Part shown: piece by piece, positions 39,059 through 59,072 of the stretch
Layout of the letters: the number at the start of each line of letters is the position of its first letter
How positions within the stretch are numbered: position 1 is the stretch's first letter
The notes under the pieces: model-generated
Told to the model about the DNA's origin: nothing
The model's database searches: none
What the model saw: only the letters and a program-made list of their open reading frames with translations
Assembly (NCBI RefSeq): GCF_006159205.1
Contig: NZ_CP040812.1
Location: 3,906,001 to 3,970,000 of the forward strand
DNA length: 64,000 nucleotides
Direction: 5' to 3'
DNA from: Antarcticibacterium flavum
Lineage (GTDB): Bacteria; Bacteroidota; Bacteroidia; Flavobacteriales; Flavobacteriaceae
Translations under genes and position numbers: made by a program

Positions 39059-39406
39059 ATGAAAAAAGCGTTGATCATTCAGGAAGACATAGTTCTTCTT
39101 AATATACTGGAGCGGTTAATGACCCTTAATTCCTATGACTGCAGGGCAGTAAGGACCATAGCCGATCTCGACATCGAAGATCAATCCCTTAATTATGACC
39201 TTATAATTTCAGAAATACTCTTCGAGGGGATTGCACCCCTGGATTTTGTGTTTCAAATACAGGAGATCATAACGCACAAAGAATTCATTATTCTCAGCAA
39301 TATGGGACAGCCTAAGGTGAGAAGAGAAATTATGGAATCTAACAAAGTAAAAGGTTTCTTCTCCGTGCCTTTCGACCTGGACCATATTCAAAAATTGATC
39401 TTATAA
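39059..39406 (+). CDS. Degenerate receiver (pseudo-receiver) leading cassette 1
   Basis: A 115-residue receiver-fold protein starting 'MKKALIIQEDIVLLNILERL'. The phosphorylation position in 'YDLIISEILFEG' is Glu52 instead of Asp, and the conserved Lys before Pro is Val ('GFFSVPFD'). It therefore should not be phosphorylated. Glu can mimic the phosphorylated state, so it may be a constantly active form. The next gene begins 1 bp after its stop. The matching gene of cassette 2 (56357-56728) is intact. Confidence 0.85.
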   Translation: MKKALIIQEDIVLLNILERLMTLNSYDCRAVRTIADLDIEDQSLNYDLIISEILFEGIAPLDFVFQIQEIITHKEFIILSNMGQPKVRREIMESNKVKGFFSVPFDLDHIQKLIL

Positions 39407-39407
39407 T

Positions 39408-40457
39408 ATGGTAGCATCAACCCTCGTTCTCCTCATCAAGTTATTACTTGCCTTTCTCCTGGGAACCTGGTTGATAATTGGAATAAGCCTGGTTTACAGG
39501 AAAAGGCGTACTGCACATCTTCAAAAGCTTGAAACGGCTTTTGCCAGGGTGACGGCAAGCTATCTTTATCCCTTACCGGGAGAACCATTTGATCTTATTG
39601 AAGCAAATCGCAGCTTCAGGAAACTGGGAATACGTCCCTCTAAACCCCGGAATGTCCAGTATCTTGTGGACCTTATGATTCGTACTCAGAGATCGCTGCT
39701 GGGTAAGAATTATCATAAGCTTGAAATACTATACAGCCAGATTCCACCTTACCGGGTCTCGGTGAATAAGTTGCGCAGCAAAATGTGGTATGTCAAAGCA
39801 ATGGGCATCAGGGAGATCTATGAAATGGGCCAAAAACAATATATAAAGGAGATCACAAAGGAAAGAAACCACCCCAATATTTATGTAAGGCGGGAATCTC
39901 AAATTGCCATGGTTGTATTCCTGGGCTGGAAAAGTTTACGATTCTTACCCTATCTAAAAAGGGAAATGACTTTATGGCAACAAATAAAGGTTGTTGAAAA
40001 ACTGCACGACCTTTACCCAATTGCTAATTTAACATACCTTCGAAAGGGCTATGATAGCGACCGCCCTTATGCCAATGAATTATTAATGAGGATTATTAGA
40101 AAATTTGACCTTTCCAGCGAGATAGGCTACATCCTGAAATTTATTGATTCTGAAAAGTTCGACACCAGGGAAACCGCTATATATTGCATATCATCATTTA
40201 CACTTAACGACCTGCAACTTGATCTTTTAAAATCCAGGTTTTTTAATATTCCCAATTTTGAACAACAGGTGCAGTTGCTAAAATATATTGACAGGACTTC
40301 TAAAAATATTGATCTTGATTTCTTTAAAAAACTACTTTATGAGGGAAATGATATTATTAAATTAAGCACTGCAGAAATCCTGTGGAATCATGGGTATATT
40401 GAGGAAGTCCAGGATTTTTATTACAGGCAATACGACGTGCAGCCACAACCGGCTTAG
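39408..40457 (+). CDS. Membrane-anchored helical-repeat (HEAT-like) protein, cassette 1
   Basis: A 349-residue protein with one N-terminal membrane helix ('LVLLIKLLLAFLLGTWLIIG'), a basic stretch, and then an all-helical body of HEAT-like repeats, for example 'NHPNIYVRRESQIAMVVFLG' and 'DTRETAIYCISSFTLNDLQL'. The repeat body would be cytoplasmic. It stands between a receiver and a glycan synthase with 1-3 bp spacing, so it may be the adaptor that carries the receiver's signal to the synthase. 'NHPNxYV' is shared with the protein at 56740-57645. Confidence 0.82.
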   Translation: MVASTLVLLIKLLLAFLLGTWLIIGISLVYRKRRTAHLQKLETAFARVTASYLYPLPGEPFDLIEANRSFRKLGIRPSKPRNVQYLVDLMIRTQRSLLGKNYHKLEILYSQIPPYRVSVNKLRSKMWYVKAMGIREIYEMGQKQYIKEITKERNHPNIYVRRESQIAMVVFLGWKSLRFLPYLKREMTLWQQIKVVEKLHDLYPIANLTYLRKGYDSDRPYANELLMRIIRKFDLSSEIGYILKFIDSEKFDTRETAIYCISSFTLNDLQLDLLKSRFFNIPNFEQQVQLLKYIDRTSKNIDLDFFKKLLYEGNDIIKLSTAEILWNHGYIEEVQDFYYRQYDVQPQPA

Positions 40458-40459
40458 TG

Positions 40460-41896
40460 ATGGAGGGGAGCATTTATCAATATATCTACTGGACGGTAAA
40501 TTCCCTCTTTTTCATCTATGGAATGTCTCTTCTTACTATTTATTTTGGAGGAATTATATTATCTGATATTGCTGTAAAGAGAAATAAAAGAAAATCCCAA
40601 TTTCTTTTAACCAAAGATATTGTAAGCGCAACCGATATACCATCTGTAACCCTGGTTGCACCTGCTTTTAATGAAGGTGTGACAATAGTGGACAATGTCA
40701 AATCGCTCCTTTCTATACAATATCCTTTTTATGACCTCATATTGGTCAATGACGGAAGCACAGATAATTCCATGGAGTTACTAATTAAGGAATTTGAACT
40801 GGAACCCTTTGACTCCACCTTCATAACTCAACCTATTCCAACAGCTACTGTAAATAAAATATATCGAAGCAACAAAATACAATATAAGCAGCTCACGGTT
40901 ATTGATAAGAACAACGGAGGCCGATCTGATGCCATTAATGCAGGAATCAATTTTGCGCAAAGTGAACTTATTTTGTGTACAGATGCAGATTGTATTATAG
41001 AACAGGATGCCCTTTTAAAAATGGTGAGACCATATCTTGAAGAAGGGGAGAAGGAGATCATTGCCTGTGGTGGGTCTATTGGAATTGCCAATGATTCTTT
41101 GATCCAGGATGGAATTTTAAAAGAATTGCGCCTGCCCCGGAATCTTGTCCCTATGATCCAGGTGGTGGAATATATAAGGGCTTTCCTTATTGGGAGAATG
41201 GGGTGGGGAGAGATAAATGGTTTAATGCTGGTATCTGGTGCCTTTGGAATGTATCCCAGGACAAGGCTTTTGGAAGTTGGTGGTTTTAATCATGCGACAG
41301 TAGGAGAGGACCTGGAATTATGTATTAGGTTAAGAGTGCATATGGAAAGGCTGAAAAAGCCTTATAAGGTAGTTTATATCCCCGAAACCCTATGTTGGAC
41401 AGAAGCCCCGCCAGATTATAATATTCTTGTAAAACAACGGGATAGATGGGCGAGAGGTCTATGGGAGACGCTTTCAATTCATAAATACCTTTTCATCAAT
41501 CCCAGGTACCGGAATATGGGAATTTTCTTTTTCCCTTACTGGTGCTTTTTTGAGTTTGGGGCACCTATAGTGGAATTCCTGGGGTTAGTGAGTATAATAG
41601 TTTTTGGCCTCCTGGGATGGATCAACTGGAATACAGCAATTCTTTTGTTTACGGCAGTGTATCTTCTTGGTTGTATTTTTTCCACGATCGCGATCTATTT
41701 GTACGTCCGCAATTTTAGGCATTATGCCACCCCGAAACAGGTTATCGAACTGCTCCTGGCCGCTTACCTGGAACCATTCTTATATCACCCGGTTTTGCTG
41801 TTTGGTCAAATGAAGGGTTATTACAAGAAGCTGTTTAAAATAAAATCGGGCTGGGGTTCTATGACCAGAAAGGGGTTTACAACAACAAATTCCTAA
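40460..41896 (+). CDS. Processive GT2 glycosyltransferase (exopolysaccharide synthase), cassette 1
   Basis: A 478-residue membrane synthase: one N-terminal helix, a GT2 domain and three or four C-terminal helices. Motifs are 'VNDGS' (Asp98), 'DADC' (175-178), 'GEDLEL' (282-287) and 'QRDRW' (326-330), the D, DxD, catalytic-base and QxxRW set of processive synthases such as PgaC, hyaluronan synthase and BcsA. The C-terminus ends 'GWGSMTRKGF'. It would polymerise a sugar from a UDP donor and push it through the inner membrane; the sugar is unknown. The ATG at 40460 is preferred over the GTG one codon earlier. Its end overlaps the convergent YaiO gene by 4 bp. Confidence 0.92.
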   Translation: MEGSIYQYIYWTVNSLFFIYGMSLLTIYFGGIILSDIAVKRNKRKSQFLLTKDIVSATDIPSVTLVAPAFNEGVTIVDNVKSLLSIQYPFYDLILVNDGSTDNSMELLIKEFELEPFDSTFITQPIPTATVNKIYRSNKIQYKQLTVIDKNNGGRSDAINAGINFAQSELILCTDADCIIEQDALLKMVRPYLEEGEKEIIACGGSIGIANDSLIQDGILKELRLPRNLVPMIQVVEYIRAFLIGRMGWGEINGLMLVSGAFGMYPRTRLLEVGGFNHATVGEDLELCIRLRVHMERLKKPYKVVYIPETLCWTEAPPDYNILVKQRDRWARGLWETLSIHKYLFINPRYRNMGIFFFPYWCFFEFGAPIVEFLGLVSIIVFGLLGWINWNTAILLFTAVYLLGCIFSTIAIYLYVRNFRHYATPKQVIELLLAAYLEPFLYHPVLLFGQMKGYYKKLFKIKSGWGSMTRKGFTTTNS

Positions 41897-43140
41897 AACC
41901 TGTATCTGTACCCTACAGAACCAATAAACTGAGTTCCCTGCCGGTTTGCAGTAATATCTTCATATAAGGCCCCTGCACCTACCTGAACCAGGTGGTGGAC
42001 TCCCAAGCTAAAATTAACTCCCAGGGTGCCGTAATAAGCCTCCAGCAGCGGATTTTCCAGCGCCTGGGTTGACAATACGCGTTCATCTGGCGAGATACCG
42101 TTACCAATTCTCAGGAATAGAAAATTATCTGCAGTACTTAAATAATACCTCACATTCCCCTGGTAATTTCTTACCAGTTCGCCACCTATCTCTGGCCCCA
42201 GGAATGCCCGGGCATTAAAATAGAATTTCCCCTGGTAAAGGGTCAAACCAAGAATTCCCGTGGAGAGGTCATTCCCGTTAAACCTTTGGAACCTGCCACC
42301 AATTTCTCCTTCAAAGACTTTCGCAAAATTATAGAACAATGAAAGGCTTCCCCGAAAATCGGGAAAAAGTTCCCCGTTGGATACCCCCATATTTGCAAAG
42401 GCATAAAACCTATCATTAAAAACAGGATAAGCTTCAAGTTCATAGAGATTGCCTTTTTTAAAAGACCTGTCTGAATATGTAACCCTGGCGATTGTAGCAG
42501 TGCGGCCAAAGTTATGCTGGTATTCCCCGCTTATGCTATGCCAGGGATCATTACGGGAATAATCTTCACTAAAACCAATATACTGGTAATTAATTCCAAC
42601 CTCATCTGTTACGCTACGGTTCAAAATTAATTGTAAAGCATATCGCTCCTCTCCTGTAAGGCCGGGACCTTGAAACAAGTCCATAGCCAGGTCGCGGGCG
42701 TCCTTTCTCCTTTTAAGCTGCAGGTATAACTGGGCCTTTCGTATTTGGAGGCCGTTATCTTCTGGATATATTTTTTCAACTCTTTCGATGAAATTAAGAG
42801 CCTGTAGTTCTCCCTGGAATCTATTAACACGTTGAAGAACCAGTGGTTTTACATCTACATATTCCGGGGCGGTTTCCAGTAAAAGATCAAGATCCTCATC
42901 GGCAGCAGCATAATTTTCCAGTGCCCAATAATTCCTTATTTGCAGGATCCTTATATCGTGGTATTCGGGTGCAAGTTCAAGTCCACGCCTGGTATAGGCC
43001 AGGGATCTTTCAAAATTGCTGTTTTGATATTCCTCCCTGGCCAGTTCATAGATCTTATCTGAATTTGTTTCTGTAATTTCCTGGGCTTTCAGGCTAAAAG
43101 TGAGTAGTAGAAGGAGGGGGGCAAGTAAATAGATCTTCAT
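41893..43140 (-). CDS. TPR plus YaiO-type outer-membrane beta-barrel
   Basis: A 415-residue secreted protein with signal 'MKIYLLAPLLLLLTFSLKAQ'. The first half holds TPR-like repeats ('AREEYQNSNFERSLAYTRRG', 'YWALENYAAADEDLDLLLE'). The second half is a beta-barrel of alternating strands ending 'FIGSVGYRYRF' with a terminal Phe. This is the YaiO family architecture, as in exopolysaccharide export proteins that pair a periplasmic TPR scaffold with an outer-membrane pore. It converges on the GT2 synthase gene with 4 bp of overlap and probably forms its exit channel. Confidence 0.9.
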   Translation of the reverse strand: MKIYLLAPLLLLLTFSLKAQEITETNSDKIYELAREEYQNSNFERSLAYTRRGLELAPEYHDIRILQIRNYWALENYAAADEDLDLLLETAPEYVDVKPLVLQRVNRFQGELQALNFIERVEKIYPEDNGLQIRKAQLYLQLKRRKDARDLAMDLFQGPGLTGEERYALQLILNRSVTDEVGINYQYIGFSEDYSRNDPWHSISGEYQHNFGRTATIARVTYSDRSFKKGNLYELEAYPVFNDRFYAFANMGVSNGELFPDFRGSLSLFYNFAKVFEGEIGGRFQRFNGNDLSTGILGLTLYQGKFYFNARAFLGPEIGGELVRNYQGNVRYYLSTADNFLFLRIGNGISPDERVLSTQALENPLLEAYYGTLGVNFSLGVHHLVQVGAGALYEDITANRQGTQFIGSVGYRYRF

Positions 43141-43212
43141 AGAGGGGTATTGAGATATTTTTCAAAAGTAAATTTTAAAAAGGGAACTCCATAATTTAAT
43201 TTTAAGTTGATC

Positions 43213-46200
43213 CTATTCCTCAATTTCTACTCTAATACCTTTGGTATGACCGGAAAATTCCGGGGCATACATGCTTTCGATATTAGTGATACCATTGGAA
43301 AAATTTCCTGCATTGTTTGCCCTTACCGTATATTCCAAAACATAGGTCCCTTTGTTAAGATTGTCAAAGAAAAAATGGGTAGCGGCATCGCGGGTGCTTT
43401 GATAATAGGCAGTGCCATCCTGGTACTTGTATTCACTTAGGACGTTAGTTGGTTCAAAGCCACTGGCCCGCATATCCTTGAGATGAATAAAATCCATATC
43501 TGCAGTTGTTCGTACTACTAATCTTACCGTCACAAGGTCACCTATTTTTAAAGGTGTTTTTGTAGAGATCCTTTTTAAAGATCTTCCTTCTTTGGCTGAT
43601 ATGTTGAGGAAGAGCTCTTTTTCAACATTTAGCGGACTTTCATTATGCATCTGTATCTTATCGAGATCTTCGAAATATTGCCAGTAAACACCTCCATATC
43701 CTGCAGTACTGTTTCGGTTTTCTATTTTAATGTTAGAGAAGCTGCTATCTATCTCCTCAGCTTTCCAGTTCAGTTTTAGGTACCCCGTACCGGCCTCTAT
43801 ATTGATTTCATCCAGTTTTTCCTTTGCCACCGGCCTTCCCCCTAAAGAGATATCCGTGTTTGCACTGGTTTGCAGCCAGTCATTTCCCTGCATCAATAAA
43901 GCGTAAGTTGCCTCTGTGGTAGCCTTTGTAGTTGGCCAGTGGTTGCTTCGCTTATTCTGAAGAAGCCATATCTTTAATTCTTGTATGGTTTCTTCCTCTC
44001 CTCCAAGTTCAGTATAGGCTTCAATAAGTAAAGCCTGAGTTTCAATTGGAGAGCGGTACCAGAACCAACCGGCTTTATTTTCCTTCCAGTACATCCCGTA
44101 ATCCTGTGATCTCACTGCAGATTCCTTTAATGCCTTAAGGATCATTGCGGCGGTTTCTCTTTCGCCCATCCTCATCAATACAAGGGATAAAAGACCCTTT
44201 TCGTAGAGACTTCTCTCGTTCCACTCCTTTTTTTGCACCTGAATTATTTTTTCTGCCAACTCCAGGATTTCGGGGGATAGGGGATGTTCCTCCATATAGA
44301 AGCTACGGGCATACAGGTAATGCAGATTATTGATACTCCTGTAGAAATATTCAGGATCATTATTAAATACCCTTCTGTTTCTTTCTTCTTTTAAAATATT
44401 TGAATCCAGATACCCGGTTGCTTTTTCGATTAGCCTTTCATCATTGATCTTAATATCCAGAGCTTTAAGATGGCCCAGCCCGGCTACAATATGACGTGTA
44501 ATGAAATAATTATCTTCCCCGCCTGAGAACCACGGCCAGGCGCCTGAAGGCTTTTGCATTTGCGCAAGGCGTTTTACCAGCTCCTCTTTTTCCGTCGCCA
44601 GTTTATCTGTATCAAATAACTGTGCAATATGCTTCTTTTGCGCAGTTTCTGAAGCGGCATCCCTCACCCAGGGAGTTTCAGCAAGAATAATGGATTTTAA
44701 TTCCTCATTTTTTTCCAGCTCGCTCACCTGCGCCCCGCTTGCCAACCAGGAATCAAAGACCTCTTTGATCTGTGGCCTGCTCTCAATAATATGCTGTGCC
44801 ACGCTGTTGGCATAAAGTCGTGCAAATGTTTGCTCAGAGCATTCGTGTTCAAATTCTATTAGGTAAGGCAAACTTTGAATGGCAAACCAGGCGGGATTCG
44901 AACTGTATTCCAGGCTGTATTTATGATGGTCCAGACTTTCAGAATTATTCTCCTTCAGATTCTTAAAGTCATAAGTTTTTGTTTTCCCTGAGCGCACAAA
45001 GAGAGGGAGGCTTTCTGTTACCAGCATCCTGTTGCTAAGAACCGGCAGGACGTTTTCCTCCCCATCAGAAAAGTTCCCTGCCTTTGCCAGGATCCTGTAA
45101 GTAACTGCGGGAATACCCTTGGGAACAGTAAGGTTCCAGGAAACTGCAGCACTGTTTGATGCTGTAATAGTAAAGTTCCTGCTACTTTCTGTATTTCCCA
45201 GCTCAAGATCAATTGGTTCCATGGTTAGGGCATTGAACAATTGCAGGATCGCAGTACCACCAAGGGTTTCATCTGAAAGATTTGAAATTTTTGATTTGAA
45301 GACAATGCTATCTCCCTCACGAAGAAATCTTGGTGGGTTTGGGGTAACACTCAATTCTTTTTGAGTAATCACCCCGCCTTCATACATGGCGGTAGTCCAG
45401 TCTATCGTGTGGGCGAGCAGGCGTAGTTTCCAGCGGGTAAGAGCCTCGGGGGAAGTAAAGCTGAACTGCAGCTTACCTTTTCTATCTACTTTAATTTCCG
45501 GAAAGAAAAAAGCAGTCTCATCCAGGTTCTTTCGTGCCTGTACATTTTGAAGCTCCGTAAGTCCTTGTTTAGTGGTAATGATCACAACCCCATTTGCCCC
45601 TTTAGCACCATATAAAGCGGTGGCTTCATCTCCTTTTAAGATCTCCACCCCGGTAATATCTTCCGGTCTCAGGTCGTGGCTGGAGACGGGTTTCCCGTCA
45701 ATGATAAATAGCGGACTTTCTGCCGAATTTAAAGAGGAAGCTCCCCTTATACGTATCATTTCCCCGCTACTATCTTCAGCTATGGAAACACCTGCTACTT
45801 TTCCCTGTAATAAATGTGCAGCATTCCCTGCATCCAGGGCATTCTCCTCACTATCCTCAACAGTGGCATAGGCTACAGCTACTACTTCCTCGAGCTGTTC
45901 TGAGTTTTCCTCCAATACGATAAAAGCTTCCCTGGAATCACCTATTGTATGCGCATATGGAAGAAAACCTATATAGGAAAAGATCAATTCATCTCCCGGC
46001 TTTGTATCCAGGGCAAATTCACCCTCAAAGTTGGTTTGAGTACCTGTTTGAGTACCTTTTATCATCACATTCACTCCAGGGATAGGAAGCCCGTCTGTAT
46101 CAGTCACGATTCCACGGGTATTTCCCTCAAGGGTTTTTAAGCTTGCAGCGGCCTTTTTATTACCCAGGTACCTTCTGTATTCATAGGAATTTGGATTGGA

Positions 46201-49200
46201 GTAATAAAAACCAAATAATTCCAGCCGGTCAAAAACCCGTTGTCCTGGTCGGTAATGTCTCACGTATGAAATATTGCCAGAGAAGGAGGAGACAGACCTG
46301 GTGGTGTTGTTAGTATAATATGGAAACCTGGTATAAGATTGTTCAAAGGCTGTGGCAGTACTCCAGGCTTTGGTTGTAAACTGGTCAAGGGAAGCGTCAT
46401 ACATGGAAGCCAGCACCTCAGCATCTGGAATGGAATTTTTTTCGTCCTTTACCGTAAAGCTCCATTTCTCTTCGAGGCCGGGTTGAATTTTATTTCTGAA
46501 GGTTTCAGTTTCAATAGTAAGGGCTTTTTTCACCTGCGGAAGACGAATTCTGCGGGCTTCCTTTATTACTGAATTATTTTTGATACCGTAAATTTGAACC
46601 TCCAGTTCCTCGCCGGTTAATTGACTGATTGGTATTTCTACCAATGCTCTCCCATCCAGGCTAAGACGTTTCTTAAAAAGCTTTCTATAACCTTCATAGG
46701 CTGAAATTTCAAGGTTGAGGTCTTTGTATGCTGTTTGGAGTAAAAGTTCCAACTTGCCGTCTTCCAGGAATTCTGAATTCTGGATGCTGTAGCTAAATCG
46801 TTGATGATCTGGCAAATACTTATCCTCTGGATTTACAACCTCAAAGGCTTTCTGAGCTTTGGCAGTGCTATTTTCGTTTCGGCTTTCAGTTTCTACAATA
46901 TATTTACCAGATTCCCATTTTTCACTCACAGGCACCTCGATTTCCAAATTCCCGGTGCTTTGAATATTTCCTTCATACACCATTTTCCCCTTAGGCCATT
47001 CTTCTGGCTGCAGATTTTTACCATAGGGTTCTTCAGGAAAAAGTTGGATAAATTCATCTTCTGGTATAAGCTGTATCTCGGGAGCCTCCCACAGCCTTTC
47101 CCTTGTGATCCTTCCCGGGCCCTGTAACTTATAGATCTTGAGGCTACCTGTTACCGGTACCTGGTTATCATTGAGATTTGTGTTTTCAATTTCTAATTTT
47201 AGTTTTTCGCCGGTGTTCACACTTTGCGGCAGGTTAATACTTGTAAATAAGTTTTTATACCCAACTTTTAAAGTTGTTTTAGCCTCACGGGTTTCCCCGC
47301 TCACATCTGTGACCGTAGCGTTTACATTGTATAGGTACAGGAGGTTTTCATCTTCGAGGTCGGCTTCATCTGCCAGGGCATTAAAAGTGATCTCAAATTT
47401 TCCGTTGGCATCTGTGATGATGGTATCTTTTATTACAGGAACCGGGTCACTGTAGGTGTAAGACCACCAGCGCCTTTCCATTTTTTGCCGTGTTACCTCA
47501 TAAATTAATTTGGTATTATTTATTCCAGATCCCATATAGGAGGCAGCATTTCCTGTTACAGAAACACTATCGCCGGGTTTAAAGGAGTTCGTGGTATCAT
47601 CAAATATTACTTCAAATGTGGGGCGTTTATATTCTTCAACACTAAATGACAATCTGCTGTCATAATAATCCCCATTCTCATAGATCTTATTCCAGAAGAG
47701 AGATTCCTCTTCATAATCTTCTTCAGCATAGATCTCAAATTCTCCGGTGATCCCCTTAGGCGGTAACCTAAATTCCCCGTTAAAAGAGCCAAATTTATTG
47801 GTAAGTAGCCTAAATGTTTGGATCTCCTCCCCATTAGGATCATCAACAAAAACCTCCACATACGTATTAGGAACCGCGGTGGTTTTTCCCTTTTTGTATT
47901 GTAATAAAACTCCTTTAAAAAAAACCTTTTGGCCCGGGCGGTAGATTGCGCGGTCCAGGTAAAGCATGGTTCTTGCAAGAGGTTGATCTTCGTCCCTGTC
48001 TTTTTCCTCATAGTAATAACCATCTCTATAATAGGTGCTAAGGGTATCCCCATCTTTGGTGAGGGTAATTCCATCATTTCTTCGATATTCTTTATTTTTT
48101 TCGAGAATGATCTCCCCGTCTTTGTTCGTTCTTCCCACTACAGTCCGGGACTGTGCGTATTTAAATTCAATTTTTACATTTTGCACGGGTTCTCCTGTAG
48201 TTCTGTCAAGACTTTTATAAGTAGTGTACTTATCAAAATTTATTTGTGAAAGCGTGAGCCTGGTGACTCTCATAAAACCAAAGGCATTACTCTCCTTAAT
48301 ATCTTTGGCTCCAACGTGTACGAGGTAGGTTCCTTTTTCCAAAGGGGGAAGCACAATCTCGGTAGAATGTACGTTATAGTCATTGCCATTTGGAAGAAAG
48401 ACCTTTTGCTCTACAAGCGCCTCCTTTTTAAGCAGTGGAAGAATACCAGCATCCCTGTTCCTGTAATTTAGATTATCTGGAAAGCTGTGGGCAACTTTGT
48501 AGATCTTTAGTTGTAAACTATCCAGGCTCTTATAGGAAATATGCATGAGATTATGATCTCCCGGAGTGACCGGGGTGGGTATTTTGACTGCAAGTTCAAT
48601 ACTAGTAATTCTACTTATGAGGTTATAGGCTTTTTGAGCTGAATCTGTATTCGGAAACTCTCTCGTTATCTTTTCTGCCAGTGCAACAGCTCTTTTCAAA
48701 AAGGCAGGATGTAGTAACCTCCCGTCTTTATCGGTTTCCCTGGAGCGGTCATAAAGGATCATTGCCATATCAAATAGGACCAGGGCCTGGACTTCCTCGC
48801 CATCATATTGAGCAGCCAGTTTTTCCAGGGCTGCTTCATAAAGCTTCCATTTTTCCTCTCCTGTGTAATTGGAATTGACATACTCCAACCTGTTGAGCTG
48901 TGCAAAGACTTTCGGCATGGTATTATTACTGGCCTGGTGCAGTCTCTCCAGCTTTTGCCAGGTTTGCAGCACCTTTACACCAGATGTATAATGCGCGGCT
49001 TCAGGAAAAGAAAGGCTAATGAATTCCTGAGTTTCAGAATACAGATCGGGGGAGCTAAAGGAGAATTGATCCCGGGCATTGACCTCTGTAAAATTGGAAG
49101 AATTGGAATAGAATTCCAGGGCACGGTGTGCCAGTACATCAAATAAGGTGGGCCTGTATTTTCGCGTTAAAGGAAGGGAATAAAGCAACTCTTCAATATC

Positions 49201-49704: not shown

Positions 49705-49891
49705 ATATAGCTTTAACCTTCCGGGGGTAGGGGAGCCGGTTCTGAATTTGAATATAGGAAAATTTTGTTAAAGTGTGGGAAGCATACAAAAAGGCGAAAA
49801 TTCTTCAGTCATCAACTTACCCTCCAGGTAGAAATAAAACCGGATAGTTTTTATAGAAATTGCCCGAAGATTAGAGATCAAAGTCTTTTCC

Positions 49892-50639: not shown

Positions 50640-50861
50640 ATGCGTAAATACCTCCCAATCATTAAACGCCTCTTCATGGTGTTGTTCCTTGTTTGCTACA
50701 CCCTGGCAACACTTTGTGTGCTTGATATCCTTTCGTACGACCACCAGTACCATTATTTCTTCTTCATTGGTTCCTTTTTCCTTTTGCTATATTTTGGAAC
50801 CTATTTTTATGATTGGATCCAGGGGCCCTTTAAAGGGTTTTATAATAAGTTGAGCAGGTAG
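50640..50861 (+). CDS. Small two-helix membrane protein
   Basis: A 73-residue protein with basic start 'MRKYLPIIKRLF' and two hydrophobic segments ('VLFLVCYTLATLCVLDIL' and 'YFFFIGSFFLLLYFGTYFY'), ending in a basic tail. A longer overlapping frame (50566-50853) has no such organisation and is probably a shadow. No family is recognised. Confidence 0.55.
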   Translation: MRKYLPIIKRLFMVLFLVCYTLATLCVLDILSYDHQYHYFFFIGSFFLLLYFGTYFYDWIQGPFKGFYNKLSR

Positions 50862-51110
50862 GAGGCAACAAAGTTTCTTTTAATATAACCTTACTCTATT
50901 TTTCTCTCATAATATAAGTATACTAAGTCCACTTTTTCAGGATATTAATTAAATTATAATAAACTCCTCTCTCTTTTTTCATAAATTTAGAAAAGGAAGT
51001 CGGGAAGACTTTTCATTGATTTTAAAGCTTATCAATAAACAATTGCACTTCCTGGTTGATCTTAATTTTCCGGATTTGTTCAGGTATGCTTCAAGTAAAC
51101 CCTGGTGCTA

Positions 51111-51929
51111 ATGAATAAGAGAAACAGAATTATAATACTGGTAGATTTTTCTGAATATTCAGAGAACCTGATTGAATTTGGCTTTTCACTCTCCAAAAAA
51201 TTAAATGGCAAACTGGTTTTTGTACATCAGGTTGCAGGGGTAGTACCGGCCCTGGCCGATGAGGGGAGCCGCAATGAGATTCTCAAAGCTGAAATTTCTG
51301 ATGCTCACATACATTTGCGGGATCTGTTGAAAGAAAGGATCCAGGATGAAAACGCAATTCATATAAGCCCAAAACCAATTCTTTCAATTCTTAAGGAGTT
51401 GTCCAACGAGCTTTATTTTGACTGGGTGCTTACGGGCCTTAAGACCACCGGGGTTTTAAAACGTCTCTTTATTGGAAGTACACCTCTTTCTATTATTGAT
51501 GAGTCCAATCATTTAACCCTGGCAGTTCCCATAAAAACCCCTGTAGCTATTCCCCAAAAGCTTTTGGTAGGGGTTACTCCCAAGTTTCCAATGAACAGGG
51601 AGCAATTTCAGGTAGTTTTAACGTCGCTTACTGGCCATATAAAGCAAATAGAGTTTTTTACTGTGCTAAAGGATGACGAGGATGAAGATAAAGCTAAAGT
51701 ATATCTGCAGAAACTTCAGAAGGAATTTGATACCCTAAAAAGTGAGTTTAGCATTTATAAGGGGGACAATGCGCTGGACCTTTTGAAGAAACAGGTACAC
51801 TTAACTATGGACTCCTTTCTTGTACTTCAACAGGGATCACGAACTCTTAACGATAAGTTATTCAGGAAGTTCATGATAAATGAGGTGGTTTACGGGGCAC
51901 AAACGCCATTAATAGTTTTATCTTCATGA
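51111..51929 (+). CDS. Tandem universal stress protein
   Basis: The 272-residue product has an N-terminal UspA fold ('NRIIILVDFSEYSENLIEFG', 'ILSILKELSNELYFDWVLTG') and a second, weaker half. The usual nucleotide loop G-x2-G-x9-G-S/T is partly kept as 'GVLKRLFIGSTPLSII'. I choose the ATG at 51111; a GTG lies two codons earlier. Its last bases overlap the antiporter start (ATGA), so the two are translationally coupled. Many Usp proteins regulate membrane transporters, and that fits here. Confidence 0.88.
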   Translation: MNKRNRIIILVDFSEYSENLIEFGFSLSKKLNGKLVFVHQVAGVVPALADEGSRNEILKAEISDAHIHLRDLLKERIQDENAIHISPKPILSILKELSNELYFDWVLTGLKTTGVLKRLFIGSTPLSIIDESNHLTLAVPIKTPVAIPQKLLVGVTPKFPMNREQFQVVLTSLTGHIKQIEFFTVLKDDEDEDKAKVYLQKLQKEFDTLKSEFSIYKGDNALDLLKKQVHLTMDSFLVLQQGSRTLNDKLFRKFMINEVVYGAQTPLIVLSS

Positions 51930-53590: not shown

Positions 53591-53874
53591 TTGAAGATTT
53601 ATCGCTTAATAGCAACTTTTAATCTTCCAACTTGTTGACACTAAAGTCAAGAAAATTAAAACCTTATCACTTAAAGGGTCGTGATGTGCTGCTATAACTA
53701 GCAATAATTAATTAACATATGTTCATGTAAAAAATAGTAACTCATTATTCTGAAATTCCTACATTGCAGCCTGAAATTAAACAGTTGTTTTATGACCTGT
53801 TATATTGATATATTAAATAAAAACAGCTTCTTCTAAATAGCCCAAGCCCCTCATTTTTTATCCCCTCCCTTTCC
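53591..53874. other. Spacer before cassette 2
   Basis: No gene. The spacer is AT-rich and should hold the promoter for the kinase-receiver-HEAT-GT2 run; there is no obvious hairpin terminator for the antiporter. Confidence 0.45.
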
Positions 53875-56382
53875 ATGACATATATTTTAAAGAAAGACAA
53901 TAATGAGGAAATACGGCGTTTGCAAACCCTCCTTTCATACAATATTCTCGACACTCCCGGGGAAGAGGAGTTTGATGGCCTGGTAAAACTTATTTCCATA
54001 ATTTGCAATTCCCCAATTGCTTTAATTTCCATGTTGGATGATAAAAGGCAATGGTATAAGGCTAAAGTTGGGGTAGTGCAGGATGAAGTGCCAAAGGAAG
54101 ATACGATTTGCCAGTTCACCCTGGAGCAGGATGACCTCCTGGAAATACCAGATGCAAGGGAGGATGACCGGGTTCGCGGTAATGACCATGTAACGGCAGA
54201 GGGAGGTATTCGGTTTTATGCAGGGGTGAATATAAAAGCAAGCAATGGGCATAAAATAGGAACTGTATGTGTGGTAGATACTGTCCCCCGGGAATTAAAT
54301 GAAGACCAAAGACTGGCCCTAAAGCTGGTGGCAGATCAAACCATGGCACTGCTGGAAACCCGTAAAAAAAATAAAGAGCTGGGAAACGAGCTGGAGTTAG
54401 TCATAAATGAAAAGATAAAGAAAACACAACTTCAACTTCTTCAAAAGGAAACAGAATATAACCTTTTGCTTAAAGCGATAAGAAAATCCAATGGGGTAGT
54501 GGAGTTTTCACCAGATGGTGTAATAAGATCTGTAAATAAAAATTTTCTAAAGGTCCTGGGATATCCCCGGGAAGAGGTAATTGGGAAGCATCACGAAATT
54601 TTTCTTGATGAAGATCAAAAATTGGCAAGTGAGGAGTTTTGGTCATCGTTACGAAATGGAGAATTTCATACAGGAAGATTTAAAAGGCTTCAAAAAGATG
54701 GTTCTCCTGTATGGATTCAGGCCACTTATAATCCCATTACAAATCAAAAGGATGAAGTTATAAAGGTGGTAAAGATAAGCCGGGATATTACCAAAGAAAT
54801 TGAAGCCGAAAGGGCATTGCAGCAATCCAGGGACCTTGCTGAAGAATTAAATAATCAAAAGGATAATTTCATAGCCAATATGAGCCACGAAATAAGAACT
54901 CCAATTCATGCTATCCTTGGGTTTACAGAACTGCTTCTGGAAAAAGAGCAGGATCCTTCAAAGGAATCCTACCTTAAATCGGTTAAAACAGCGGGAGACA
55001 ATCTTTTATACATAATTAACGATATTCTGGACCTCTCCAAACTGGAAGCAGGAGTAATACATCTTGAGAAAGAGCCTTTTGATCTTTCACTGGTAATACA
55101 AAATGTCTTTTCAATTCTTCATTTAAAGGCGCATCAAAAAAAGCTGTTATTCCAATATCATATAGAACCCGATGTTGAATTTCAGCTTATTGGCGATAGG
55201 AACAGGTTAACGCAAATATTGATCAATCTACTTGGGAATGCTATAAAATTCACAGCAGCAGGAAGAGTTGAGGTTTTTATAAAATCTGTCAAATCTGTCC
55301 CTGAAAACAATGAAAGTACCCGGCTGCAATTTAAAGTAGTTGATACAGGCATTGGTATTCCTGCAAAGAAACTGGACGCTATTTTTGACCGATTTTCGCA
55401 GGGAGAGGAAGACACCTCCCGTAAATATGGAGGCACAGGTTTAGGACTTAATATTTCCAGGCAGCTCATTGAGAAACAGGGAGGTACTGTGGGGGTAGAA
55501 AGTACAATAGGTAAGGGATCTGTCTTTACATTTGAGCTCACCTTTGGCAGGGGAATTATCAATGCACAATTAGAAAAAGAGAAGTCCCCGGCTGCCACCC
55601 GCGATATCAACAAGGCCAGTATCTTGCTTTGTGAAGATAATGAGCTTAACCAGAGGTTAATAAAGGCAATTCTTAATGAAAAAGGCTATGAAGTTGACCT
55701 GGCTGAAAATGGAGAAAAAGGCATAGAATTGTTACGTATCAAGAAGTACGACCTTATCTTAATGGATATTCAAATGCCTGTAAAGGATGGCTATGACGCT
55801 ACTAAAGCAATAAGACAGGAACTTGAAATTTCCACTCCAATCATAGCTTTGACTGCAAATTTCATGCTTTCAGAAAGGATCAAATGTCATGAGCTGGGAA
55901 TGAATGATTACTTATCGAAACCCTTTCCAAAGGAAGATCTGTTGAATATCATAGAGCTTACGATACAGGGAAACAGCTATCATAAGATATTGAAACCCAA
56001 TGTTACTTTTAAGGATAAACCTATTATCTCCCTGGAGAACCTCAATGACCTGACGGAAGGGGATGAAAATTTCAGGCAGGAAATGATCTTGCTTCTGGTC
56101 AACCAGGCAGAAAAGATGTTTGAAGAAATCCAGGGTCATTCTGAAAATAAAAATGTTGTCGAAATTGCTGCAACAGCACATAAATTAAAGACATCTCTTG
56201 GAGTTATTGATGCCGACCTCACATTGCTGAATAAGCTTGAAGATCTCAAAAATCACGATCCTGGAAATAGGGATTATACCGGCCTGGTAGTCTCTTTGGG
56301 CTTACAGCTTAAGGAGATTTTTAGTATATTGAAAGAATTAATAAATACCCCTCAAAATGAAGACCCTACTAGTAGAAGATGA
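53875..56382 (+). CDS. Hybrid histidine kinase GAF-PAS-HisKA-HATPase-REC-Hpt
   Basis: An 835-residue soluble kinase. A GAF domain of the 'LDTPGEEEFDGLVKLI' type (about 20-160) is followed by a short coiled coil and a PAS domain ('VVEFSPDGVIRSVNKNFLKV', about 190-310). HisKA has His338 in 'MSHEIRTPIHAILGF', the ATPase shows 'NAIKFTAAG' and 'DTGIGIPAKK', the receiver has Asp631 in 'LILMDIQMPVKDG', and a C-terminal Hpt domain has His769 in 'ATAHKLKTSLGVI'. It contains His-Asp-His of a phosphorelay; the fourth Asp is in the receiver gene that overlaps its end by 26 bp. Both sensory domains are cytosolic. Confidence 0.95.
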   Translation: MTYILKKDNNEEIRRLQTLLSYNILDTPGEEEFDGLVKLISIICNSPIALISMLDDKRQWYKAKVGVVQDEVPKEDTICQFTLEQDDLLEIPDAREDDRVRGNDHVTAEGGIRFYAGVNIKASNGHKIGTVCVVDTVPRELNEDQRLALKLVADQTMALLETRKKNKELGNELELVINEKIKKTQLQLLQKETEYNLLLKAIRKSNGVVEFSPDGVIRSVNKNFLKVLGYPREEVIGKHHEIFLDEDQKLASEEFWSSLRNGEFHTGRFKRLQKDGSPVWIQATYNPITNQKDEVIKVVKISRDITKEIEAERALQQSRDLAEELNNQKDNFIANMSHEIRTPIHAILGFTELLLEKEQDPSKESYLKSVKTAGDNLLYIINDILDLSKLEAGVIHLEKEPFDLSLVIQNVFSILHLKAHQKKLLFQYHIEPDVEFQLIGDRNRLTQILINLLGNAIKFTAAGRVEVFIKSVKSVPENNESTRLQFKVVDTGIGIPAKKLDAIFDRFSQGEEDTSRKYGGTGLGLNISRQLIEKQGGTVGVESTIGKGSVFTFELTFGRGIINAQLEKEKSPAATRDINKASILLCEDNELNQRLIKAILNEKGYEVDLAENGEKGIELLRIKKYDLILMDIQMPVKDGYDATKAIRQELEISTPIIALTANFMLSERIKCHELGMNDYLSKPFPKEDLLNIIELTIQGNSYHKILKPNVTFKDKPIISLENLNDLTEGDENFRQEMILLLVNQAEKMFEEIQGHSENKNVVEIAATAHKLKTSLGVIDADLTLLNKLEDLKNHDPGNRDYTGLVVSLGLQLKEIFSILKELINTPQNEDPTSRR

Positions 56383-56728
56383 TGAGTTCCTATTGAAATC
56401 CCTTTCTTTTTTTTTAAGATCAAAAGGTTATACTGTTACAGGTTTTGATAATGGTCTGGATGCCATGCAATACCTGGAAAATCACGAGAATGAAATAGAT
56501 ATCGTGATAACAGACCTTAATCTTCCCTTCGCAGGAGGTCAGCAGGTAATACGCAGCCTGAGGACTAGCCGGGGCCAAAAGCTTCCTCTCATTGTCCTTA
56601 CATCTTCTGGTGTGGAATCAACAGAACTGGAAGTCTTTGATCTGGGAGCAGATGAGTTTATTTCCAAACCTTTTAGCCCTGCCGTTTTGCTTAAACGCAT
56701 GGAAAAGCTAGTTGTTAAACAATCCTGA
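56357..56728 (+). CDS. Intact single-domain response regulator leading cassette 2
   Basis: A 123-residue receiver with 'LLVEDDEF', Asp53 in 'IVITDLNLPFAGG', 'VLTSSG' and Lys104 in 'FISKPFSP'. All active-site positions are intact. It starts inside the end of the Hpt-containing kinase (26-bp overlap) and lies 11 bp before the HEAT-like gene. It is the natural final Asp of the phosphorelay. Having no output domain, it must act by protein contact, most simply with the HEAT-like protein or the synthase. Confidence 0.93.
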   Translation: MKTLLVEDDEFLLKSLSFFLRSKGYTVTGFDNGLDAMQYLENHENEIDIVITDLNLPFAGGQQVIRSLRTSRGQKLPLIVLTSSGVESTELEVFDLGADEFISKPFSPAVLLKRMEKLVVKQS

Positions 56729-56739
56729 TCCTTATATTC

Positions 56740-57645
56740 TTGGATATAATTTTAACTACCGTTTTTTCTCCTTTACACTTTTTGTCAAATGAAGGCTTGA
56801 TCCTTTACAGGCCACTAGTGGCGAGCAGTGAAGGTTTGATTCCTTTTTATTTTACTGTAAGAAATTTACTGTTATTAGTCATATTTTGCCTTGTCGCGGT
56901 TTCCCTGCTGTTCTTTTTAATGACCCTTTACAAAAAAGTCTATAGAATACGGGAGATCAGGAAAAAGAAAGAATATCAGGAACAAATAGATGAATTGCTG
57001 TTCAAATTTCTCTTTGATGAGTCCTCAGTAAGTGAAATGGCTATCCATCCTTTTTTTAAGGAACATAATGGCGAGAGGCTTTTTCAACAGCTTACGATTA
57101 AAGCTCTTATTGGCCTTCATCATAATTACAGTGGGATCTATAGCAAAAAGCTGGAACAGTTCTTTGCAGAATCTGGCCTGGCTGCTTATTCTCTTTCCAA
57201 ACTTAATTCAGCTAACTGGGCGCATATTGTAGAAGGAATAAGGGACCTTTCGAGCCTTAAGTACTTACCGGCCTATCCAAGGATCGTAAGTTACAAGAAC
57301 CATCCAAACAGTTATGTACAAACTGAGGTATTGCTTGGAATGATTAAGCTTAAAGGAATATCAGAACTATTGAAATTCAAAAATTCCGGCGTTTATTTTA
57401 ATGACTGGATACAGAGTAATATCCTTTTTGTTGTCAAGAACTATAGGATCCCAGCACCTGCCAATCTTGATGAACTTCTTGAGAGCAGAAATAGGTCTGT
57501 TTTCCTGCTGGCAGTACGATTAATGAATTATTACAGTTTACCGGAGCATTATGAGGCTTTGACCCGGATGTTTGAAAAAATGGATGATAAGGTGCTAAAA
57601 AAAGAAATGTCTTTGCTATTAAATAAAACAGAGCAGCTTCAATGA
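56740..57645 (+). CDS. Membrane-anchored helical-repeat (HEAT-like) protein, cassette 2
   Basis: A 301-residue relative of the protein at 39408-40457. It has a membrane helix at about 43-62 ('LLLLVIFCLVAVSLLFFLM'), a basic stretch, then HEAT-like helices with 'NHPNSYVQTEVLLGMIKLKG', matching the 'NHPNIYVRRE' region of the first copy. It uses a TTG start at 56740, because no ATG precedes the membrane helix. Its stop overlaps the GT2 start by 4 bp. Function is inferred from the conserved three-gene order. Confidence 0.8.
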   Translation: MDIILTTVFSPLHFLSNEGLILYRPLVASSEGLIPFYFTVRNLLLLVIFCLVAVSLLFFLMTLYKKVYRIREIRKKKEYQEQIDELLFKFLFDESSVSEMAIHPFFKEHNGERLFQQLTIKALIGLHHNYSGIYSKKLEQFFAESGLAAYSLSKLNSANWAHIVEGIRDLSSLKYLPAYPRIVSYKNHPNSYVQTEVLLGMIKLKGISELLKFKNSGVYFNDWIQSNILFVVKNYRIPAPANLDELLESRNRSVFLLAVRLMNYYSLPEHYEALTRMFEKMDDKVLKKEMSLLLNKTEQLQ

Positions 57646-59072
57646 CAGGTAATTACACAATAGATCTGGTTATAACGGTATTTAATTACCTCATTCTTTT
57701 CTTCGCTATTTTTGTGATGTTTTCCTATGTGGCCCTGGCTATTATTTCAGGAGTTCATCTAAAAGCCTACTTAAAAAAGAACAGGTTCGTTAATTATAAT
57801 GCGTTGCTGGCCCTGGACAGTGCCCCCAAAGTTTCATTGATAGCACCGGCCTATAATGAAGGGAGGACAATTGAAGAAAATGTTAGGTCATTGCTATCCA
57901 TCAACTATAACAATTTTGACGTGATCGTAGTTAACGATGGTAGTAAGGATGATTCCATCCCCGTTCTTAAAGCAGCGTTTGATCTTGTAGAGAGCTCATT
58001 GACTTATAAGGATAAAATTCCTACCAAAAAGGTTAAGGCAATTTACACATCTGCAAATCCCGCGTTTTCCAGATTAATAGTTGTAGACAAGGAGAATGGA
58101 GGAAAGGCAGATGCTTTAAACACAGGGATCAATGTATCCCGCAACCCGTATATTGTTTGTATAGATGTGGATTGTATTATGGATAAGGATGTGCTTTTAA
58201 AACTAGCCAAACCTTATTTGGAGCAGTCAGATAAAAAGATCATTGCTACCGGGGGCGTGGTAAGAATAGCCAATTCATGTGTTATCAAATCGGGAAAACT
58301 TGTAGAGGTGAAGGCTCCGGAGAACTTCCTGGCGCGGGTGCAGGTAATAGAATATTTAAGAGCTTTTATCCTTGGAAGAATGGCCTGGAGTAAAATGGAT
58401 GGCCTCCTTATCATAAGCGGTGCTTTTGGCATGTTTGATCGTGAGGTTGCCATAAGTAGTGGGGGATATGACACCAAAACTGTAGGAGAGGATATGGAGC
58501 TTATAGTTAGGATGAGAAGGTACATGGTAGATAAAGGGGAGCCTTACACTGTACAATATATCCCAGATCCCTTATGCTGGACAGAAGCACCCGAAAGTTA
58601 TAAGATCCTGGGAAAACAACGCAGCCGCTGGATGCGTGGAACTATAGAAACCCTCTGGACCCACAGGAGGATGATGTTCAATCCTAAATACAGGACATTA
58701 GGGCTACTGAGTTATCCCTATTGGTTGTTTGCTGAATATTACGCCCCTTTGATTGAGGTTACAGGACTAATTATAAGTTTAGTTCTTGCATTTTTAGGGA
58801 TTATAAGCTGGGAATTCTTCTTTTTATTCCTGCTGCTGGTGTATGTATTTGCAGTGATGTTTTCCATGATGGCTTTGTATACAGAGGAATCAACTTATAA
58901 GAAATATGAGACCATCCGGGATTTGAGAAAACTGGCAACTGTAGCTTTGCTCGAACCACTAATTTTTCATCCTTTTACCGTTTATGCAGCTTTAAAAGGA
59001 AACTGGGAAAAATTAACGGGAAACAAAGGTTGGGGGGAAATGACCCGCACCGGTTTTGATAAGAAAAATTGA
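57642..59072 (+). CDS. Processive GT2 glycosyltransferase (exopolysaccharide synthase), cassette 2
   Basis: A 476-residue synthase with the same layout as the cassette 1 enzyme: 'VNDGS' (Asp99), 'DVDC' (175-178), 'GEDMEL' (282-287), 'QRSRW' (326-330), C-terminal helices and 'GWGEMTRTGF'. The catalytic motifs fall at nearly identical residue numbers in both copies, so they are paralogues. The DxD motif differs (DVD versus DAD), and the N-terminal segment has been rewritten. No YaiO-type exit barrel is adjacent to this copy. Confidence 0.92.
   Translation: MTGNYTIDLVITVFNYLILFFAIFVMFSYVALAIISGVHLKAYLKKNRFVNYNALLALDSAPKVSLIAPAYNEGRTIEENVRSLLSINYNNFDVIVVNDGSKDDSIPVLKAAFDLVESSLTYKDKIPTKKVKAIYTSANPAFSRLIVVDKENGGKADALNTGINVSRNPYIVCIDVDCIMDKDVLLKLAKPYLEQSDKKIIATGGVVRIANSCVIKSGKLVEVKAPENFLARVQVIEYLRAFILGRMAWSKMDGLLIISGAFGMFDREVAISSGGYDTKTVGEDMELIVRMRRYMVDKGEPYTVQYIPDPLCWTEAPESYKILGKQRSRWMRGTIETLWTHRRMMFNPKYRTLGLLSYPYWLFAEYYAPLIEVTGLIISLVLAFLGIISWEFFFLFLLLVYVFAVMFSMMALYTEESTYKKYETIRDLRKLATVALLEPLIFHPFTVYAALKGNWEKLTGNKGWGEMTRTGFDKKN

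Follow-up and report, generated by a model that had tools for sequence, protein, structure and literature searches.

Two cassettes of the same build lie in a 64,000-nt stretch of the Antarcticibacterium flavum genome (GCF_006159205.1, NZ_CP040812.1, 3,906,001–3,970,000), which we call the window and to which all positions refer. Each cassette consists of a receiver, a HEAT-like membrane protein and a GT2-family synthase. Copy 1 (39059–41896) is accompanied by a convergent TPR-YaiO barrel, and copy 2 (56357–59072) lies behind a hybrid kinase (Table 1). Every ORF named in the initial annotation is found there and is open. GT1 denotes the synthase of copy 1; GT2 denotes the synthase of copy 2 and is also the family name of both glycosyltransferases.

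Table 1. Genes of the two cassettes, with positions in the window
Feature	Position	Strand	Description
RR1	39059..39406	+	stand-alone degenerate receiver, 115 aa
HEAT1	39408..40457	+	one N-terminal membrane helix, then alpha-solenoid
GT1	40457..41896	+	membrane GT2-family synthase; motifs NDGS, DADC, GED, QRDRW
YaiO	41893..43140	-	TPR-YaiO outer-membrane beta-barrel; convergent with GT1, 4-base overlap
HK	53875..56382	+	hybrid histidine kinase GAF-PAS-HisKA-HATPase-REC plus C-terminal Hpt-like segment
RR2	56357..56728	+	canonical stand-alone receiver; 26-base overlap with kinase gene
HEAT2	56740..57645	+	HEAT-like membrane protein, shorter than HEAT1; uncertain start codon, listed as TTG
GT2 (copy 2)	57642..59072	+	membrane GT2-family synthase, 43% identical to GT1

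Receivers, kinase and HEAT proteins

RR2 is a good match to the Pfam Response_reg family (84.8 bits) and has every phosphotransfer residue that was checked, namely E7-D8-D9, Asp53, Thr82 and Lys104 (KP). RR1 scores 24.2 bits, below the cut-off of 30.2. Its acidic triad is Q8-E9-D10 and a Ser stands at the Thr/Ser position, while Glu52 takes the place of the phospho-Asp and Val103 that of the conserved Lys (QED, E, S and VP in the residue check). The residue set of a phosphorylatable receiver is complete in RR2 and lacks its Asp and Lys in RR1. The two receivers have no meaningful BLAST similarity (best E 1.4). A lone receiver had been proposed as the phospho-switch of both copies; the residues checked are compatible with this for RR2, but Glu52 and Val103 rule out RR1 as a phosphorylated on-switch of copy 1. 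RR1 belongs to a clade of 31 rows, in all of which the conserved Lys is missing. The Asp is retained in 28 of these 31, so loss of phosphorylation across the clade is uncertain. An AHKLK segment, which we take to be the Hpt motif, is visible at the C-terminus of the kinase. The Hpt ascribed to this kinase by the initial annotation is plausible, although the PF01627 score of 14.6 bits is below the cut-off of 24.6. Kinase-size proteins matching the receiver profile on the same strand and within 7 kb, centre to centre, accompany 47 of 82 rows with Lys-keeping receivers and 2 of 31 Lys-less ones.

HEAT1 and HEAT2 show a weak but real relationship (27% over 92 aa, E 6e-7). The solenoid of HEAT1 carries NHPNIYVRRESQ and TLWQQIK segments, and the shared 'NHPNxYV' of the initial annotation is indeed present in both proteins, within a segment conserved across the family. 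HEAT1 reaches 13.7 bits against Pfam HEAT_2 (cut-off 27.7) and HEAT2 has no Pfam HEAT family match of its own; relatives in the same family score 28.4–47.3 bits on Pfam HEAT. Among solved chains, the family profile finds a synthetic fusion protein at 2e-22 and alphaRep proteins from 5.6e-15. Matches to designed HEAT chains lie mostly at profile positions 250–345, a C-terminal part that HEAT2 largely lacks. HEAT2 has no in-frame ATG near its 5' end, so its start is uncertain. Of 128 HEAT rows, 124 are more positive after the membrane helix. The prediction is thus that a single helix holds the HEAT protein in the membrane and that the solenoid lies in the cytosol, where the receiver and the synthase active site are also expected, in agreement with the membrane HEAT adaptor of the initial annotation.

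Synthases and export

An alignment of 464 positions, with 2 gap positions, gives 43% identity between GT1 and GT2 of copy 2. Their catalytic motifs had been described as kept, and the residues concerned are invariant in 124 of 124 synthases, both window copies included; the QRDRW positions are likewise invariant (124/124). Q..RW is a mark of processive synthases. With D, D, D and QxxRW in place, both enzymes are predicted on their residues to be inner-membrane processive GT2-family synthases. The nearest solved chains to GT1 are those of cellulose synthase BcsA (E 1.5e-7, residues 60–405). Among NCBIfam models, both synthases come closest to PgaC/IcaA (TIGR03937), with scores of 120.9 and 139.5 bits and a cut-off of 422.3; on CelA/cellulose synthase TIGR03030 they score 52.0 and 30.7 bits (cut-off 699.1). 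Being so far below these cut-offs, equivalog for TIGR03937, they are identified neither as PNAG synthase nor as cellulose synthase. Membrane helices above a plain hydropathy threshold number three in GT1 and two in GT2 of copy 2, in a scan that can undercount.

The YaiO protein of copy 1 scores 146.4 bits against Pfam PF19413 (cut-off 23.9) and 107.4 against TIGR04390 (cut-off 32), and its TPR matches are below the Pfam cut-off. Copy 1 has a TPR plus outer-membrane beta-barrel exporter, and copy 2 has no YaiO of its own. A single PF19413 match was found in the A. flavum genome by a search that detects the E. coli control. As copy 2 lacks a YaiO and one is found in the genome, the two synthases may share it. 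In the clade of copy 2, 11 of 15 members own a YaiO, and the sister locus of copy 2 (L135) has the order HK-RR-YaiO-HEAT-GT2. A coherent set for synthesis and export had been proposed for the locus. The TPR-YaiO barrel fits the outer-membrane step, but the treatment of copies 1 and 2 as one set has only indirect support, since 11 of 15 rows of this clade own a YaiO and copy 2 does not. Copy 2 could instead be a decaying or orphaned cassette, copy 1 alone being functional; the barrel that L135 and ten further rows of the 15 possess would fit this, as would the missing ATG start of HEAT2. All four genes of copy 2 are open, however, its GT2 keeps every catalytic residue checked, and three loci of the clade (L169, L171 and L172) likewise have no YaiO near the cassette, so that its absence is a recurring state. 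We consider decay unlikely and retain sharing of the barrel as our reading.

In a survey of 100 loci for which the HEAT protein was the sole bait, an LtaS-like phosphotransferase domain adjoins the synthase or is fused to it in 42. It is plausible that this domain is a polymer-decorating enzyme. A search of A. flavum for an LtaS-like enzyme, made with one relative as query and no positive control, found none. Could these synthases glycosylate a membrane lipid or protein and make no exopolysaccharide at all? The GT2 family is broad, the PgaC and CelA scores are far below their cut-offs, and the three and two helices counted are fewer than a BcsA-type channel needs, subject to the undercounting of the scan. 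Nevertheless, QRDRW is invariant in all 124 synthases, the nearest solved relatives are BcsA chains, and genes for TPR-beta-barrel exporters and for LtaS-like enzymes are repeatedly linked to them, which makes such a glycosylation role unlikely and leaves exopolysaccharide synthesis as the preferred function.

Conservation and descent of the cassettes

The co-occurrence check proposed by the initial annotation was run in other genomes, and the gene order is kept far outside A. flavum. A GT2-family synthase lies immediately downstream of the HEAT gene in 99 of the 100 surveyed loci. A receiver is near by our rule in 89 (one of them, L144, doubtful), and a YaiO-type match is present in 75 and absent from 25. 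Of 392 genomes sampled from the phylum, at least 57 show a HEAT match with an E-value no higher than 1e-20; this hand count is a lower bound, with at most five candidates scored per genome. Plasmid HEAT-GT2 pairs, partly recognized by annotation, occur in Alphaproteobacteria, Deinococcota, Bacillota and haloarchaea. The HEAT homology is weak in Alphaproteobacteria and haloarchaea, where our profile gives E-values from 3e-5 to 3e-8 or does not match, and the assignment is partly annotation-based. Three haloarchaea and two Bacillota were examined, and in none of them does a YaiO match accompany the HEAT-GT2 pair, as expected if YaiO serves the outer-membrane step only. The receiver-HEAT-GT2 arrangement is no local oddity; it is found again in many bacteria and in some archaea. 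The Halosolutus locus has glmS and a sugar nucleotidyltransferase gene next door.

The distances of HEAT and GT2-family proteins correlate strongly (Mantel r 0.874, n=124; best of 999 permutations 0.072), and the two evolve as a unit. This result and the downstream synthase in 99 of 100 loci place the arrangement far outside what chance would produce. Copies 1 and 2 fall in separate, well-supported clades. This rules out a recent tandem duplication, which the word 'duplicated' had implied, and points to two old lineages.

By the same rule the receiver is absent from 10 of 99 HEAT-GT2 loci (L176 and L180 are near contig ends) and from 4 of 11 plasmid loci with HEAT upstream (H2, H8, H11 and H12, belonging to Deinococcus, Planococcus, Paenibacillus and Bacteroides), so it is not obligatory. 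These loci would suit a HEAT protein that is a scaffold joining the synthase to periplasmic export parts, with the receiver controlling something else, such as kinase output or phosphate flow. Some HEAT proteins also have a long N-terminal extension ahead of the membrane helix, with sub-cut-off matches to LysM (L158) and SPOR (L157), which would reach the periplasm, and in the pooled partial Mantel test the direction reverses and the receiver tracks GT2 more strongly than HEAT. On the other side, the receiver gene abuts or overlaps the HEAT gene in many loci and is near it in the 89 mentioned, and in linear partial Mantel tests receiver distances track HEAT beyond GT2 in both receiver classes. 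Rank-based tests weaken this preference (0.23 vs 0.19 in the Lys-keeping set), and coevolution of receiver and HEAT is only suggestive. Among the labelled ORFs of the survey, none is labelled as both receiver and HEAT, the fusion that a Rosetta stone search would look for. A pure scaffold seems to us somewhat unlikely, and we favor the HEAT protein as the target of the receiver.

Relation to known systems and proposed mechanism

The Bcs, Pga and Alg systems of Gram-negatives share control by c-di-GMP, which is the textbook regulation of synthase-dependent exopolysaccharides. GGDEF and PilZ have no match in the A. flavum genome, while the control searches find them in 8 and 5 of 14 genomes; c-di-GMP control of the cassettes is thus unsupported in this organism. 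Lacking this element, the cassettes appear to be a variant of synthase-dependent exopolysaccharide secretion and not a plain member of it. They share with PgaABCD (PNAG) an inner-membrane GT2-family synthase and a TPR-beta-barrel outer-membrane exporter, but the exporter is the PgaA porin there and a YaiO barrel here, and the synthases are far from PgaC. We know of no HEAT protein or receiver from Pga. The TPR of PgaA plays a scaffold role, according to the accessible part of PMC9384988. Bcs type II (BcsE, BcsG) comes close through BcsA, the nearest solved structure to GT1. To our knowledge, it has no HEAT adaptor. In the portion of PMC11470070 at hand, BcsG is the pEtN transferase of cellulose secretion and the Bcs synthase is c-di-GMP-dependent. 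The former has a parallel in the LtaS-like enzyme that adjoins, or is fused with, many synthases here; the latter differs from A. flavum, in which neither GGDEF nor PilZ matched. In the available text of PMC7439463, the receiver of BcsE is regarded as degenerate and phosphotransfer as an unlikely mode of action for it. In BcsE this receiver is joined to a GGDEF module, whereas RR1 is a separate protein. In the E. coli yaiO-yaiP neighbourhood a YaiO barrel adjoins a GT2-family gene, like in copy 1. We know of no HEAT protein or receiver there, nor of an established function. Among stand-alone CheY-like regulators, RR2 is alike in its phosphotransfer residues and sits behind a kinase; RR1, without Asp and Lys, is unlike them, and the proposed target here is a membrane HEAT protein.

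We think it fairly probable that the cassettes carry out synthase-dependent polysaccharide export in which control lies not with c-di-GMP but with a receiver that acts on a cytosolic HEAT adaptor. Each cassette would be the inner-membrane core of the secretion system. The processive GT2-family enzyme would polymerize and extrude the sugar chain, the membrane-anchored HEAT solenoid on the cytosolic side would control or assemble the synthase, and the stand-alone receiver would give the HEAT protein its cue. Phosphorylation of RR2 in copy 2 would come from the hybrid kinase, probably via its Hpt-like end, and phosphorylated RR2 would bind HEAT2 and switch the synthase on. As RR1 has lost some residues of phosphorylation chemistry, it is more likely a constitutive or differently controlled subunit of a HEAT1-GT1 complex. 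The single TPR-YaiO barrel would export one or both products through the outer membrane, and two-component input would replace the c-di-GMP control of classical systems. We infer that a polysaccharide is made, that receiver and HEAT protein are in contact, that the effect is activation and not repression, and that YaiO is shared.

More tentatively, the same device may work across domains. A receiver phosphorylated by a kinase/Hpt relay would bind the HEAT solenoid and gate the processive synthase directly, the Lys having been lost once (the 31 rows, all flavobacterial). This would be a post-translational, c-di-GMP-free polysaccharide switch common to Bacteroidota, Alphaproteobacteria and haloarchaea. 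In the Lys-less flavobacterial lineage, the receiver would have become a different kind of switch or a permanent member of the synthase complex. Such a receiver-HEAT-synthase core would be a widespread and apparently undescribed alternative to c-di-GMP control. It allows receivers whose chemistry is intact to be compared, in a natural setting, with one Lys-less lineage, and suggests a role for gene sets annotated merely as 'HEAT repeat', 'response regulator' and 'glycosyltransferase'.

The set of receiver, HEAT and GT2 is not described in the literature covered, which comprised titles and starts of abstracts with few subscription papers or preprints. In the accessible part of a transcriptome paper with both HEAT and glycosyltransferase, the mentions stand in separate table rows. 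A text search of the available portions found no YaiO in PMC9601211 and no HEAT in PMC4293000, which deals with the fpgA GT2 of F. psychrophilum. Among the matches listed for YaiO, many are E. coli detection work.

Organisation and conservation of the two cassettes

Both cassettes are present in the window as the initial annotation described them, and an ORF check finds all of their genes open. Copy 1 comprises a stand-alone receiver (RR1), a HEAT-like membrane protein (HEAT1) and a membrane synthase of family GT2 (GT1), with a convergent TPR-YaiO barrel; copy 2 comprises a hybrid kinase, RR2, HEAT2 and the synthase GT2. By coordinates, RR1 and HEAT1 are spaced by one base; the overlaps are one base for HEAT1 and GT1, 26 bases for the kinase gene and RR2, and 4 bases for HEAT2 and GT2. 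The synthases share 43% identity, HEAT1 and HEAT2 are weakly related, and BLAST comparison of RR1 with RR2 gives no meaningful similarity. The host genome, a single 4.35-Mb contig, yields a single YaiO match, the barrel of copy 1, so copy 2, if it exports a polymer, would share this barrel or use an unrecognised exporter.

A HEAT profile (A1), built from 22 HEAT proteins, was searched in 392 genomes from the phylum as well as 149 relatives. At E 0.001 it matches in 136 and 51 of these, respectively, generic HEAT proteins included; at E 1e-20 or better at least 57 of the 392 match, ten of which carry no closer label than 'same phylum' and so lie outside the window's class. From 97 regions and the window, 100 HEAT loci were collected without the synthase as bait. 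In 99 of them a same-strand GT2 synthase lies no more than 150 bases downstream of HEAT; the protein of the sole exception, L189, has strong generic HEAT matches. A receiver is found in 89 loci by rule (a same-strand receiver-profile match of 95–170 aa within 2.2 kb upstream, any such ORF at most 120 bases upstream, or, downstream, a receiver match within 6 kb), the call at L144 being probably false. A YaiO-profile match is near 75 cassettes, placed upstream or downstream, convergently, or in the gap that separates receiver from HEAT. The co-occurrence check proposed in the initial annotation thus bears out a gene order conserved outside this genome. Several other genomes (e.g. G002, G003, G007, G014) also hold two cassettes.

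On sequence evidence, HEAT and GT2 form one evolutionary unit: their distances correlate over 124 pairs with r 0.874, against 0.072 for the best of 999 permutations. All 124 GT2 sequences share the residues D, D, D, E-D and Q..RW. In a GT2 tree of 124 rows made by a quick method, 59 of the 121 inner branches are starred (95 or better) and 35 are open. Copy 1 falls in a 31-row clade with support 100 and stem 0.8; copy 2, next to same-genus L135, belongs to one of 15 rows. The copies are therefore old coexisting lineages. YaiO is near the cassette in 11 of the 15 rows of copy 2's clade, the others being copy 2, L169, L171 and L172.

Receivers, HEAT proteins and proposed control of the synthase

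In copy 1's clade the conserved Lys is replaced in 31/31 receivers (V 12, I 6, F 6, L 4, A 2, T 1), and the phosphorylation-site position holds Asp in 28, Glu in 2 (window, Aquimarina L057) and Gly in 1 (L059). Because of its receiver residues and this clade pattern, RR1 is judged an intact, degenerate receiver that is probably not phosphorylated; the Asp kept in 28 rows advises caution in extending this to the rest of the clade. RR2, from its sequence, is a normal receiver. Outside copy 1's clade, 82 rows keep Lys, 79 of them with Asp too. The three Lys rows lacking it (L156, L177, L188) and the Emticicia plasmid receiver, which reads Asn and Arg at the Asp and Lys positions, indicate that degenerate receivers arise outside this clade as well. 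A kinase-size receiver-profile protein lies on the same strand within 7 kb in 47/82 Lys rows versus 2/31 Lys-less rows. In eight same-genus cassettes of another clade a receiver-profile protein of 251–252 aa precedes the receiver; the single one tested, from L110, is REC-Hpt.

In 124 of 128 HEAT proteins the best membrane window is followed by a more positive flank than the one preceding it (mean +4.1 versus −0.5), which places the predicted HEAT solenoid in the cytosol; in some rows this window is only weakly hydrophobic (lowest 0.35). By the measure used, more than 80 residues precede the helix in four members (L158, L170, L175 and L181), and the helix rule missed the long N-terminus of L157; LysM (L158) and SPOR (L157) matches, both below cut-off, are consistent with a periplasmic N-terminus in such proteins. 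Against solved chains, the HEAT family profile finds a synthetic fusion protein (2e-22) and designed alphaRep proteins (from 5.6e-15); these matches fall mainly in the profile's C-terminal part. HEAT proteins of 635–985 aa with long C-terminal tails occur at L126–L132, L145, L147, L150 and L152; acidic residues abound in both tails read (L127, L145), and in L126 the profile match extends to residue 799.

In classical synthase systems c-di-GMP is the control input. GGDEF and PilZ searches give no match in the host genome; of 14 control genomes, they are positive in 8 and 5, respectively. On the simplest reading, receiver and HEAT would stand in for c-di-GMP as input to the synthase. Partial Mantel coefficients for HEAT-receiver given GT2 versus GT2-receiver given HEAT are 0.44 versus 0.21 in the 82 Lys rows, 0.85 versus 0.09 in the 31 Lys-less rows and 0.18 versus 0.32 over all 113 (linear); by rank they are 0.23 versus 0.19, 0.62 versus 0.36 and 0.14 versus 0.39. 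They lend no more than weak support to a putative receiver-HEAT contact within receiver classes. The parts resemble those of the Pga and Bcs systems. Searches of open-access journal literature turned up no paper describing the receiver-HEAT-GT2 set, which is therefore filed, within that scope, as a previously unreported variant of synthase-dependent secretion. BcsE, a regulator of cellulose secretion, shows that such a protein can include a degenerate receiver; PMC7439463 judges this receiver unlikely to act by phosphotransfer.

Plasmid loci in other phyla

Run against plasmids with GT2 as query, tblastn gives 33 records, and 14 loci were examined among the 20 matches listed. HEAT lies directly upstream of the synthase in 11 (Emticicia, Bacteroides, Salinirubellus, Halosolutus, Mesorhizobium, Paenibacillus, Erythrobacter, Haloarcula, Planococcus, Deinococcus, Devosia); none is seen in H15, H16 and H17, whose GT2 matches are at 30% identity or less. 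The HEAT profile matches 7 of these 11 proteins, and the calls in Deinococcus, Salinirubellus, Halosolutus and Planococcus come from annotation. With the Haloarcula protein as query, those of Salinirubellus (2e-42) and Halosolutus (7e-35) are retrieved. Since this profile gives weak matches (3e-5 to 3e-8) or none in Alphaproteobacteria and archaea, remote HEAT homology there is likely rather than proven. A receiver adjoins the HEAT or TPR/YaiO gene in the same upstream run in seven (Emticicia, Salinirubellus, Halosolutus, Mesorhizobium, Erythrobacter, Haloarcula, Devosia). YaiO matches are absent from the three haloarchaeal and two Bacillota loci examined and present in the remaining six; those of Deinococcus (2.8e-9) and Erythrobacter (2.8e-13) are weak and, like that of Devosia, annotated only as TPR proteins. 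The bolder case is that receiver-HEAT-GT2 would be a cross-domain switch. At the Halosolutus locus glmS and a sugar nucleotidyltransferase adjoin the synthase, hinting at an amino-sugar polymer there, not for the window's cassettes. The unannotated 11.8-kb record MT836222.1, from human faeces and labelled as phage in a phage collection, carries a relative of the haloarchaeal synthase.

Neighbouring genes and gene variants

An LtaS-like alkaline-phosphatase-superfamily domain, nearest among solved chains to VP1736 (E 8e-21) and LtaS (E 3e-7), occurs at 42 of the 100 HEAT-baited loci, separate or fused to the synthase. Single-chain fusions of 1134–1270 aa (L108, L142, L162 and others), three of them checked with Pfam, are possibly all-in-one synthases and decorating enzymes; L162 has an additional TPR match near its end. 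A GDPD-domain protein of 616-aa type, of interest beside the LtaS-like enzymes of other loci, is near six same-genus cassettes (L115, L116, L118, L120–L122), directly downstream of the synthase in L121. Two further families recur near cassettes: one of 735 aa that has a DUF4838 domain, at 12 loci, and an unknown one of 391 aa, at 13. HEAT, YaiO or GT2 genes are split into at least two ORFs in Tenacibaculum, Lacinutrix, G013, Emticicia and Devosia.

Coordinates of other window genes, split-gene loci and the phage-labelled synthase relative
Feature	Locus or record	Coordinates	Strand	Remark
RND efflux pump fused to outer-membrane efflux protein, one 1489-aa ORF	Window	14938-19407	-	
Hybrid kinase, 1979 aa	Window	25580-31519	+	Nine or ten tandem HAMP matches, GAF domain, three receivers
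Bacterial alpha-2-macroglobulin, 2163 aa	Window	43213-49704	-	Domain search
Split gene	L058	7101-7994		Pieces kept as separate ORFs
Split gene	L054	9434-10673		Pieces kept as separate ORFs
Split gene	L112			Pieces kept as separate ORFs
Split gene	L195	7373-8601		Pieces kept as separate ORFs
Split gene	L204	3683-5260		Pieces kept as separate ORFs
GT2 relative of haloarchaeal synthase	MT836222.1	6922-8148		35.9% identity

In the window alpha-2-macroglobulin, CarboxypepD_reg-like and TonB-receptor Plug domains are inserted between MG2 and A2M, and a homologue is near the cassette of Christiangramia L045.
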